NCBI GenBank assembly: GCA_021740785.1 | Contig: JAIOZI010000028.1 | Location: forward strand, 1 to 58,705 | Direction of reading: 5' to 3' | Origin: Melioribacteraceae bacterium | GTDB lineage: Bacteria; Bacteroidota; Ignavibacteria; Ignavibacteriales; Melioribacteraceae | DNA: 58,705 bases | In this document: positions 16,687 to 18,231 of the stretch, in pieces | How positions within the stretch are numbered: the first letter of the stretch is position 1 | Layout of the letters: every line of letters begins with the position of its first letter | The notes under the pieces: generated by a model | Databases searched by the model: none | The model's input: the letters and a program-made list of their open reading frames with translations, nothing else | What the model was told of the DNA's origin: nothing | Made by a program: the position numbers and the translations under genes

Positions 16687-16981
16687 CAAAATAGAAGAAC
16701 TGATGAAGGAGAGATTTCCCAAGGTTTCGTACTTCGTCGTTCAATCCTCATAAATAATACTTTTACTGAATTGCCTGGTTAATTGAAATCGGGACAAAAT
16801 GTTTTTTGTGTATTGGATAAGTTTTATTAACGGGAGGAAATCAGCCCGTCTCACTAAGTGAGACGAGGTCTCGATTCAACAGAGTTGAATTGGATTGGCT
16901 TTTAGCATCCCGCGTTTCGGAACCTGATAAGAAGGTGATTCCGGGAATAAAGTTCATATAAATATTGATTAGATAATATAA
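16687..16981. other. Spacer with palindromes between tRNA-Tyr and tRNA-Gly
   Basis: This 295-bp spacer is unusually long for a tRNA operon. It holds two clean palindromes: CGTCTCAC-TAA-GTGAGACG at 16847-16865 and ATTCAAC-AGA-GTTGAAT at 16874-16890. I see no coding potential: the minus-strand frame through here merely reads across the tRNA-Gly gene. Confidence 0.5.
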
Positions 16982-17055
16982 GCGGGAGTAACTCAGTTGG
17001 CTAGAGTCACAGCCTTCCAAGCTGTTGGTCGCGGGTTCGAATCCCGTCTCCCGCT
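16982..17055 (+). tRNA. tRNA-Gly (anticodon TCC)
   Basis: A 74-nt cloverleaf with acceptor GCGGGAG/CTCCCGC, anticodon loop CTTCCAA (TCC) and T-arm GCGGG-TTCGAAT-CCCGT. CCA is not encoded. Confidence 0.95.
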
Positions 17056-17085
17056 CAGAAAATTGTTTGCGCGGATTCAAGCTTG

Positions 17086-17100
17086 CCTGCCGAAGGCAGG
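17086..17100. repeat. Palindrome CCTGCC-GAA-GGCAGG
   Basis: A perfect 6-bp stem with a GAA loop lies between tRNA-Gly and tRNA-Thr. Short GC-rich palindromes of this form occur as dispersed intergenic repeats in related genomes, but copy number cannot be judged here. Confidence 0.5.
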
Positions 17101-17142
17101 TCACGTCTTCTGCTCAAAGATTTTATAAGTAATTTGATGAAG

Positions 17143-17215
17143 GCTGACGTAGCTCAGTCGGTAGAGCACATCCTTGGTAAGGATGAGGTCACCGGTTCAA
17201 TCCCGGTCGTCAGCT
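17143..17215 (+). tRNA. tRNA-Thr (anticodon GGT)
   Basis: A 73-nt cloverleaf with acceptor GCTGACG/CGTCAGC, anticodon stem CATCC/GGATG around TTGGTAA (GGT), and T-arm ACCGG-TTCAATC-CCGGT. It is the apparent parent of the 65-bp tandem repeats that start at its 3' end. CCA is not encoded. Confidence 0.95.
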
Positions 17216-17540
17216 CAAAGTTTGAAAGCGCATCGTTGGCAAGGATGAGGTCATCCCGATTTTAATCGGGATCGTCAGCTCAAAGTTTGAAAGCGCATCG
17301 TTGGTAAGGATGAGGTCATCCCGATTTTAATCGGGGTCGTCAGCTCAAAGTTTGAAAGCGCATCGTTGGTAAGGATAAGGTCATCCCGATTTTAATCGGG
17401 ATCGTCAGCTCAAAGTTTGAAAGCGCATCGTTGGTAAGGATGAGGTCATCCCGATTTTAATCGGGATCGTCAGCTCAAAGTTTGAAAGCGCATCGTTGGT
17501 AAGGATGAGGTCATCCCGATTTTAATCGGGATCGTCAGCT
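17216..17540 (+). repeat. Five 65-bp tandem tRNA-Thr-derived repeats
   Basis: Five head-to-tail units start at 17216, 17281, 17346, 17411 and 17476 and differ from each other at very few positions. Each keeps the tRNA-Thr anticodon loop TTGGTAA (TTGGCAA in unit 1), the 3' anticodon strand GGATG (GGATA in unit 3), the AGGTC variable region and the acceptor 3' strand CGTCAGCT. The D-arm is replaced by GCTCAAAGTTTGAAAGC. The T-arm is replaced by the near-perfect hairpin ATCCCGATT-TT-AATCGGGAT. In every unit the 5' anticodon strand reads CATCG, not CATCC, leaving one mismatch in the anticodon stem. The normal 5' acceptor strand is absent. They are tRNA-like but unlikely to be functional tRNAs. 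Confidence 0.85.
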
Positions 17541-17648
17541 CAAAAGAAACAAAGATTAGTTCTTTAAGAAGAATGAATAGAATAACACTGATACTGCTTC
17601 AATCAATATTAATTATAAATGTTATTTGGTTAAGCAGATCAAGAGTGA

Positions 17649-17694
17649 GCCCGTGATAAGGATGGGGCATCCCGGTAAATCGGGATCATCAGCA
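17649..17694 (+). repeat. Diverged sixth tRNA-Thr-like unit
   Basis: About 110 bp past the array, GATAAGGATGGGGC, the hairpin ATCCCG-GTAAAT-CGGGAT and CATCAGC recall the 3' half of the 65-bp unit in the same order. The anticodon loop is no longer recognisable. It looks like an older, decayed member of the array. Confidence 0.5.
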
Positions 17695-17704
17695 CTTGTT
17701 AGTT

Positions 17705-17727
17705 TTGGCGTAACGCCTATTTTTTTT
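17705..17727 (+). terminator. Possible terminator after the tRNA-Thr array
   Basis: GGCG-TAA-CGCC is followed by TATTTTTTTT, immediately before the rpmG leader. The stem is only 4 bp, so termination would be weak, but the T-tract is good. Confidence 0.45.
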
Positions 17728-17773
17728 GTCGAAATTAAATGGAGTATTTAACTACTCTTGGAGAAGCAAGGAA

Positions 17774-17941
17774 ATGGCAAAAGGTAAGAATATAAGACAG
17801 ACTGTAATTTTGGAAAGCACTGCAGGAACAGGGTACAGATATACTACTACTAAAAATAAAAGAAATCACCCTGGTAGAGTTGAATATAGAAAGTATGATC
17901 CTGTTGCAAGGAAGCATGTGATTTTCAAGGAAACTAAATAA
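17774..17941 (+). CDS. rpmG: 50S ribosomal protein L33
   Basis: This 55-residue protein of the large subunit reads '[18 protein letters not shown]' and ends 'KHVIFKETK'. It has no CxxC pairs, so it is the zinc-free form. The start at 17774 is preferred over an upstream in-frame start because it gives the standard family N-terminus and is preceded by AAGGA. It lies between the tRNA-Thr array and tRNA-Trp, at the head of the secE-nusG-rplK series. Confidence 0.95.
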
Positions 17942-17950
17942 TTTTTTTTT

Positions 17951-18024
17951 ACGTCAGTAGCTCAATTGGCTAGAGCAGCGGTCTCCAAAACCGCAGGTTG
18001 GGGGTTCGAGTCCCTCCTGACGTG
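17951..18024 (+). tRNA. tRNA-Trp (anticodon CCA)
   Basis: A 74-nt cloverleaf with acceptor ACGTCAG/CTGACGT, anticodon loop CTCCAAA (CCA) and T-arm TTGGGGG-TTCGAG-TCCCT. It lies 9 nt after rpmG and 24 nt before secE, so it is probably co-transcribed with them, as in many related bacteria. Confidence 0.94.
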
Positions 18025-18048
18025 CACAAAAACATCAAGACAAAGGCT

Positions 18049-18231
18049 ATGAAAGATAAGATAATCAACTTTTTTAACGACGTGGTTAAGGAAATGAAAA
18101 AAGTTACCTGGCCGACCAAAGAAGAGTTGAAGGAATCTACTAATATTGTGATTGTTGTCTGCTTGTTGTTAGCAGCCTTTACATATGCAATTGATATGAC
18201 AATTTCACAAATCTTCAAAGGGATATTTTAG
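18049..18231 (+). CDS. secE: Preprotein translocase subunit SecE
   Basis: This 60-residue, single-membrane-span clamp subunit of the SecYEG channel has the conserved amphipathic helix 'VVKEMKKVTWPTKEEL' followed by one hydrophobic segment. The chosen ATG at 18049 gives the usual short bacterial length. An upstream extension would read through the tRNA-Trp gene. nusG starts 2 nt after its stop, the classic secE-nusG pairing. Confidence 0.95.
   Translation: MKDKIINFFNDVVKEMKKVTWPTKEELKESTNIVIVVCLLLAAFTYAIDMTISQIFKGIF

Follow-up and report, generated by a model that had tools for sequence, protein, structure and literature searches.

The window, by which we mean the whole stretch of 58,705 nucleotides analyzed here, is contig C77 of a 4.85-Mb draft genome in 115 contigs, the sole genome of its genus in our comparison set. 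The genes at the locus follow the order tRNA-Tyr, tRNA-Gly, tRNA-Thr, an rpmG-like ORF (17774-17941, read by eye), and tRNA-Trp. The tRNA-Thr(GGT) gene (17143..17216, + strand) is intact, being called by ARAGORN and scoring 72.3 bits with the Rfam tRNA model at 17143-17215, and it is the parent of five 65-bp units that follow it in tandem on the same strand, at 17219..17283 (unit 1), 17284..17348 (unit 2), 17349..17413 (unit 3), 17414..17478 (unit 4), and 17479..17543 (unit 5). TRF reports this as one array with a period of 65, 5.9 copies, and a score of 669, the two other rows for the window scoring 53 and 74. Alignment of the five units to the tRNA gives scores of 50-60, and none of 7,770 shuffled searches reached 26. 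Each unit is made up of the tRNA trailer, the 3' strand of the D-stem, the anticodon arm, the variable region, a hairpin replacing the T-arm, and the 3' strand of the acceptor, and is devoid of the 5' acceptor strand, the 5' D-stem, and the T-arm itself. The T-arm CCGGTTCAATCCCGG of the tRNA has become TCCCGATTTTAATCGGGA, a TCCCG..CGGGA hairpin. In unit 1 the replacing hairpin is ATCCCGATTTTAATCGGGAT (17253..17272, no strand assigned), and it recurs at the same place in units 2 to 5 (17318-17337, with the last pair changed, 17383-17402, 17448-17467, and 17513-17532). A diverged sixth unit, read from the sequence at 17642..17695 (+ strand), has a hairpin of its own in the place of the T-arm (ATCCCGGTAAATCGGGAT), and its last 16 nt were recovered as a repeat copy at 17678-17693.

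Much of this anatomy had been proposed in a first-pass annotation of the DNA, and its account of five tandem units derived from tRNA-Thr, of the retained anticodon loop, variable region, and 3' acceptor strand, of the T-arm exchanged for a hairpin, and of a decayed further unit downstream is borne out here. So is its claim that the array was amplified after a common change: all five units read CATCG where the tRNA-Thr gene reads CATCC, a shared C-to-G change in the anticodon arm. Units 4 and 5 are identical, and units 1, 2, and 3 each depart from that sequence at a single base. The core CCCGATTTTAATCGGG is present at five places in the 4.85-Mb genome, every one of them within the array, as against none for a reversed-pattern control, and the exact 37-base unit core has no match in the wider collection of genome contigs. 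In 71 of 79 family genomes, the match is mainly to the tRNA itself.

The same annotation saw in each unit a new pseudo-D-arm and suggested that the array might yield a chain of tRNA-like RNAs acting as sponges. Neither proposal is supported by the analysis. The supposed D-arm is the tRNA trailer (AAAGTTTGAA) joined to the 3' strand of the D-stem. Covariance-model scoring, which had been put forward as a check, was done over 16900-18100 at E<=10; it returned the three intact tRNAs and weak matches on or beside them and found no tRNA in any unit. The folding z-score is -3.05 for tRNA-Thr, -1.78 for unit 1, -0.85 for unit 4, and -1.26 for the sixth unit, and the predicted folds of these three units are hairpins rather than cloverleaves. 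With an arm and several strands missing from the units as well, the reading as a chain of tRNA-like RNAs was rejected on the covariance search and the folds.

Between the array and the rpmG-like ORF lies a terminator-like sequence, GGCG-TAA-CGCC followed by a run of T (17707..17728, + strand, read by eye). Its stem has four pairs, and a terminator scan with a five-pair limit did not report it. If it works, the array would lie within the 3' trailer of the tRNA transcript. The scan itself gave five sites in comparison to 2.4 in shuffled sequence; four of these, each formed by GGATGAGGTCATCC and a T-rich tail, are inside the array, and we regard them as weak. Directly after tRNA-Gly is a possible decayed copy of the 3' part of that gene with a GCCTGCCGAAGGCAGG hairpin in the place of the T-loop (17071..17115, + strand); it was seen by eye, scores below 24, and is tentative. 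Further hairpins, CGTCTCACTAAGTGAGACG and GATTCAACAGAGTTGAATT, are found between tRNA-Tyr and tRNA-Gly at 16841-16950 and are perhaps relics of more units.

Arm-swapped tRNA copies in related operons and beyond

To place the array in context, related operons were gathered as 66 loci from family genomes (of 71 stretches) and 80 loci via NusG; three loci had no anchor, and removal of duplicates gave 104 regions including the window, of which 97 have two or more tRNAs. The tRNAs of each region were aligned to the spacers of that region with a cutoff score of 26, no hairpin pattern entering the search. Matches of at least 26 to a region's own tRNAs were found in 29 regions, as compared to none in the 7,770 shuffled searches. 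We set aside L240, where a true tRNA is broken by N, the weak match of L195 (score 26), and the first match of L065, a genuine tRNA-Gly with N next to it; also left out of the count are L093, L118, and the Thr copy of L085, which were recognized by eye and score below 26. In all, about 28 of the 97 related tRNA operons, the window included, bear partial tRNA copies with a swapped arm. The first-pass annotation had named the lack of any comparable array in close relatives as one of the signs that would reduce the array to a neutral tandem duplication; comparable copies are present in many relatives.

These copies follow common rules. Those lying 5' of the intact gene mostly keep its 5' part, those lying 3' of it mostly keep its 3' part, and the replacement hairpin is mostly of the TCCCG..CGGGA kind. 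In tRNA-Gly copies, the CAGCC..GCTG arm between GAGTCA and TTGG is replaced by TCCCG..CGGGA, and in tRNA-Thr copies TCCCG..CGGGA stands between GAGCA and AGGTCACC. This swap of the anticodon arm has the same boundaries in the Gly and Thr copies of many operons. The T-arm is the swapped arm in the window, in L207 (two units), L105, and L113, and in the Gly copy of L085. Further hairpins are present in the D- or T-loop of some copies (L097, L103, L183, L214, and L229). The copies of L062, L086, and L195 are too decayed to be assigned to a class, and in L062 it is a 5' part that lies downstream of the gene. Swapped copies can be mistaken for real tRNAs in annotation: ARAGORN called tRNA-Leu(TAA) at 981-1057 of the L250 region, which is a Gly copy with a hairpin swap, and tRNA-Lys(TTT) at 1479-1573 of L376, which is a Val copy with such a swap.

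Beyond the operon, 57 of the 164 genomes in the order contain the pattern AGAGN{1,2}ATCCCGN{2,14}CGGGA, as against two matches overall for the reversed-pattern control. At 25 of 62 pattern loci (two of these loci taken twice) a tRNA lies within 700 bp of the first site, including tRNAs for Val, Lys, Arg, Asp, and Thr(TGT); of the remaining 37 loci, many lie in genes or simple repeats. L255, L258, L272, L285, L298, and L299, among others, have tRNA sequence at the site with no tRNA call near it. A scan of the phylum with AGAGCATCCCGN{2,14}CGGGA matched 54 of 395 genomes (control, 2), some of the matches looking like chance occurrences in genes. Both patterns preset the boundary AGAG..ATCCCG, and the exactness of the anticodon-arm swap therefore rests on the operon alignment survey. 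At one pattern locus, L314/L270 (G122:C1:1721761-1722481), there are six tandem units of ~140 bp that combine the 5' part of an Ala-like tRNA with a swap of the anticodon arm; within 700 bp of the first site, no tRNA was called.

Hairpins of the TCCCG..CGGGA kind are also dispersed away from tRNAs. The looser ATCCCGN{3,14}CGGGA was enriched in all 17 genomes tested, with 39 forward matches in this genome versus one in the control, and many sites are outside tRNA loci. Viral contigs were scanned for the palindrome, and eight contigs match. Derivation of the array hairpin from a dispersed element was considered and rejected, as the array palindrome is found nowhere else in the genome; hence, the array core does not behave as REP/RPE-like elements do, in which the same palindrome stands at many genome sites, and it is the loose class ATCCCG..CGGGA that is dispersed. 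In genome G003, all eight examined copies (L316-L323) of a 16-base palindrome, ATCCCGCTATGCGGGAT or its reverse, are situated inside a dispersed non-tRNA element, ..TATATAACA[palindrome]TGTTGTGTATA..; this palindrome, too, was dismissed as a source, its copies sharing that other, longer context free of tRNA sequence. In genome G079, simple GTGAAGGGTGA-type repeats (L304-L306) are studded with TCCCGAC..GTCGGGA hairpins whose loops differ, another sign of such hairpins spreading in these genomes.

GIY-YIG ORFs linked to tRNA genes

What the first-pass annotation missed is that the exchange of an arm for a hairpin recurs beside many tRNA genes and is often joined to a GIY-YIG ORF, in this genome as well. 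An ORF runs from upstream up to or into several of the swapped copies, and the six such ORFs tested have GIY-YIG domains (E values of 6e-14 to 8e-19). The full unit consists of a GIY-YIG ORF of ~75-100 residues and a partial tRNA copy that has a hairpin interrupting an arm or standing in its place. It sits directly 3' of an intact tRNA or, as a mirror image, on the 5' side. This genome has 16 matches to PF01541, of which two, in frames of 610 and 566 residues, are probably UvrC-type. Among the 14 short matches, 11 belong to series starting no more than ~220 bp from a tRNA on the same strand, and three have no tRNA nearby. The tRNA-Lys gene is followed by two units, each a GIY-YIG ORF with a Lys copy bearing CTCCGACTGATAAGTCGGAG for its anticodon arm, and then a third, partial ORF; tRNA-Leu is preceded by two units formed by Leu nt 1-24, a CTGCCTACCGGCAGGCAG hairpin, and a GIY-YIG ORF; and tRNA-Ser(GCT) has after it three ORFs, the last of them disrupted, and two Ser copies interrupted in the anticodon loop. 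The Ser(CGA), Ala, and Ser(TGA) cases are single or at contig ends, and no swapped copy was found at these three GIY-YIG loci.

At L330 (contig C14 of this genome, G000; tRNA-Ser(CGA)), the GIY-YIG ORF lies between direct repeats of more than 100 bp that start with the tRNA 3' end; with no swapped arm in view, this is perhaps a younger or a different form of insertion. Contigs C20, C56, and C107 of G000 have GIY-YIG matches at their ends, two of them adjoining tRNA-Ala and tRNA-Ser(TGA), and tandem tRNA-linked units probably broke the assembly there.

The linkage extends to the relatives. PF01541 matches are present in all 75 family genomes searched, UvrC included. At high-scoring GIY-YIG loci of the family, a same-strand tRNA lies within 700 bp in 13 of 29 cases, compared to 0 of 42 controls, the other 16 having no tRNA nearby. 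A copy of the locus's own tRNA, scoring at least 26, accompanies nine of the 13; at L342, L344, and L347 a tRNA is near and no such copy was recovered at a score of 26. In the operon survey, a GIY-YIG ORF directly follows tRNA-Gly in seven of the 104 regions (L058, L062, L065, L077, L109, L195, and L250), that of L062 being interrupted by a stop. Outside the order, four of 10 loci examined (L373, L376, L377, and L378) have GIY-YIG matches, and L378 shows three of them at a spacing of 358 bp with a swapped copy after each.

Two loci place units with and without the ORF side by side. At L358 (G009, tRNA-Asp), downstream of the intact gene come first an ORF-less unit in which TCCCGATCTGCAAGATCGGGA takes the place of the T-arm, then a GIY-YIG ORF ending inside a second T-arm-swapped copy, and last another ORF-less unit with the same hairpin and, save for one base, the same trailer. 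At L349 (tRNA-Cys), the swap spans the anticodon stem into the T-loop and occurs both in a 5' copy that has no ORF and in a 3' copy flanked by two ORFs. Thus, the design seen in the window exists inside ORF-bearing arrays. Two loci of one genus further differ by the element: L076 reads Gly, 9 nt, Thr, and L077 reads Gly, ORF with swapped Gly copy, 9 nt, Thr. They are an empty and an occupied site bounded by the tRNA 3' end, and they are the one such pair.

The residues Y, Y, G, R, H, T, E, and K are invariant in 15 proteins encoded by ORFs chosen for their position next to a tRNA or a tRNA copy, and the catalytic-type residues Y7, Y18, G20, R28, and E64 are conserved in all 15. Four intact tandem pairs differ at 12 synonymous changes per 203 sites versus 10 nonsynonymous changes per 799 (p=0.0003), a test that leaves out two pairs with the truncated third ORF of the Ser locus, with which the pooled nonsynonymous/synonymous ratio is 0.69, and that excludes L058, L077, L373, L378, and the second ORF of L274. 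By this comparison of coding sequences, the ORF is under purifying selection. Profile searches identify two UPF0213 proteins, the SLX1 structure-specific endonucleases, and I-TevI as its relatives of solved structure, and the link to SLX1 raises the possibility that hairpin or branched DNA is a substrate of the nuclease. GIY-YIG protein entries of Bacteroidota presumably often have tRNA-encoded tails, and the end of the L373 protein, ..LAQLVQSIPIQSGGS, looks like one. A phage source of the ORF was considered and dropped: the one protein compared with phage records gave no match at E<=1e-5.

Origin of the array

We interpret the array as probably an ORF-less form, either non-autonomous or relic, of the tRNA-linked GIY-YIG nuclease element described above. 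The window has no GIY-YIG match or remnant (four query proteins, E<=1e-3), and its sister units and the operon of its relatives do have the ORF; the array is therefore non-autonomous or a relic at most. The nuclease would cut the intact tRNA gene or its 3' junction, and repair from a unit sharing the tRNA 3' end and trailer would restore the tRNA and add a unit, so that repeated gains could build up tandem arrays. The hairpin may take the cut site out of the copy and so render it immune. The units of the window would then have been multiplied in trans, the nuclease acting from another place in the genome, or left behind after loss of the ORF. The main weakness of this interpretation lies in the missing GIY-YIG match of the window together with the surveyed Thr 3' copies, none of which has an ORF. 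The GIY-YIG loci with no tRNA near them, 16 of 29 in the family and 3 of 14 in this genome, and the hairpins dispersed away from tRNAs also speak against it, and the immunity step lacks an explanation for the intact tRNA, which adjoins the element with no visible protection.

The same weaknesses lend some substance to an account in which no nuclease is involved, with slippage or unequal recombination duplicating tRNA ends, the dead copies collecting TCCCG..CGGGA palindromes, and GIY-YIG genes merely settling at such places. It would accommodate both the ORF-less Thr copies, those of the window among them, and the enrichment of ATCCCGN{3,14}CGGGA in all 17 genomes, with its many sites outside tRNA loci. 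However, such a scenario does not sit well with an anticodon-arm swap that keeps the same boundaries across operons in a survey free of any hairpin pattern, nor with an array palindrome that is found nowhere else in the genome or with the alternation of ORF-less and ORF-bearing units in one array (L358), and we consider this account unlikely. The near-identity of the five units, their position in a probable 3' trailer of the tRNA transcript, and the replacement of arms by hairpins rather than their simple loss might alternatively be taken to mean that the units are functional RNAs under selection, be it as a sponge for processing enzymes or the synthetase or as a source of tRNA fragments. Yet they have no tRNA covariance match and fold weakly, and the array is conserved in no other genome, its exact core being unmatched and most of the family matches residing in the tRNA, all of which makes such a role very improbable; the units of the window are probably selfish or neutral DNA. 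An artefact of assembly, or a wrong number of units, deserves a thought in a draft of 115 contigs in which three GIY-YIG matches fall at contig ends (C20, C56, and C107) and in which such repeats break assemblies, but units 1 to 3 have private changes, and like arrays appear in many separate assemblies, one of them a single contig (G049, L341), so that this can be given very little credence.

Returning to the nuclease-linked element, a broader proposal can be made tentatively, one that we think rather doubtful as it stands. Bacteroidota may harbor widespread elements parasitic on tRNA genes, composed of a small, perhaps structure-specific GIY-YIG nuclease and hairpin-swapped copies, in which the hairpin would play an active part as an immunity mark or a substrate and ORF-less units would be multiplied in trans, akin to miniature elements built from tRNA. 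If true, tRNA genes across a bacterial phylum would carry tiny selfish nuclease elements that leave arm-swapped copies behind, which would explain unusual tRNA pseudogenes, tRNAs that are called falsely, assemblies that break at tRNA genes, and GIY-YIG proteins with tRNA-encoded tails. It would also open to testing how a homing nuclease targets an essential, highly conserved gene without killing its host and why the copies need the hairpin.

Comparison with known systems

Several systems share one or another feature with the array. REP and Rickettsia palindromic elements are small palindromes scattered through the genome, the interior of genes included; here, in contrast, the hairpin replaces a tRNA arm, its inner stem varies by locus, and the palindrome of the array is undispersed. 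The tyrT repeats of Escherichia coli are tandem, follow a tRNA gene, and contain its 3' end, and we know of no arm-for-hairpin swap or linked nuclease in repeats of this type. In the open-access literature, covered as titles and the starts of abstracts with most subscription journals and all preprints outside its range, no description was found of GIY-YIG elements linked to tRNA genes, or of tRNA copies with a swapped arm, in the chromosomes of bacteria.

A closer likeness is seen in the mORFs of fungal mitochondria (Glomus atp6, atp9, cox2, and nad3; Allomyces atp6), where a homing-endonuclease ORF is inserted together with a duplicate of the 3' end of its target, which stays whole, with its native 3' end downstream (PMC3630166). 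As in the tRNA element, the nuclease ORF arrives with a spare copy of the target's 3' end; unlike it, the mORFs target protein genes and, in the part of that account available to us, are described with neither a hairpin swap nor short tandem arrays (PMC3630166). SegB of phages T4/T6, as presented in the accessible portion of the report, cuts within tRNA genes and is required for the tandem amplification of a tRNA segment, probably via microhomology of tRNA and segB ends (PMC13096335). Like SegB in that source, the nuclease described here is a free-standing GIY-YIG enzyme encoded beside tRNA genes (PMC13096335). It differs from SegB in being chromosomal, in the small size of its ORF, and in its association with partial, hairpin-swapped tRNA copies and with ORF-less units. 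The array is probably allied to the free-standing GIY-YIG homing elements as a non-autonomous form, rather than being a member of the SegB family. If the interpretation is correct, it would represent a chromosomal counterpart of the SegB-driven amplification of tRNA genes in phages.
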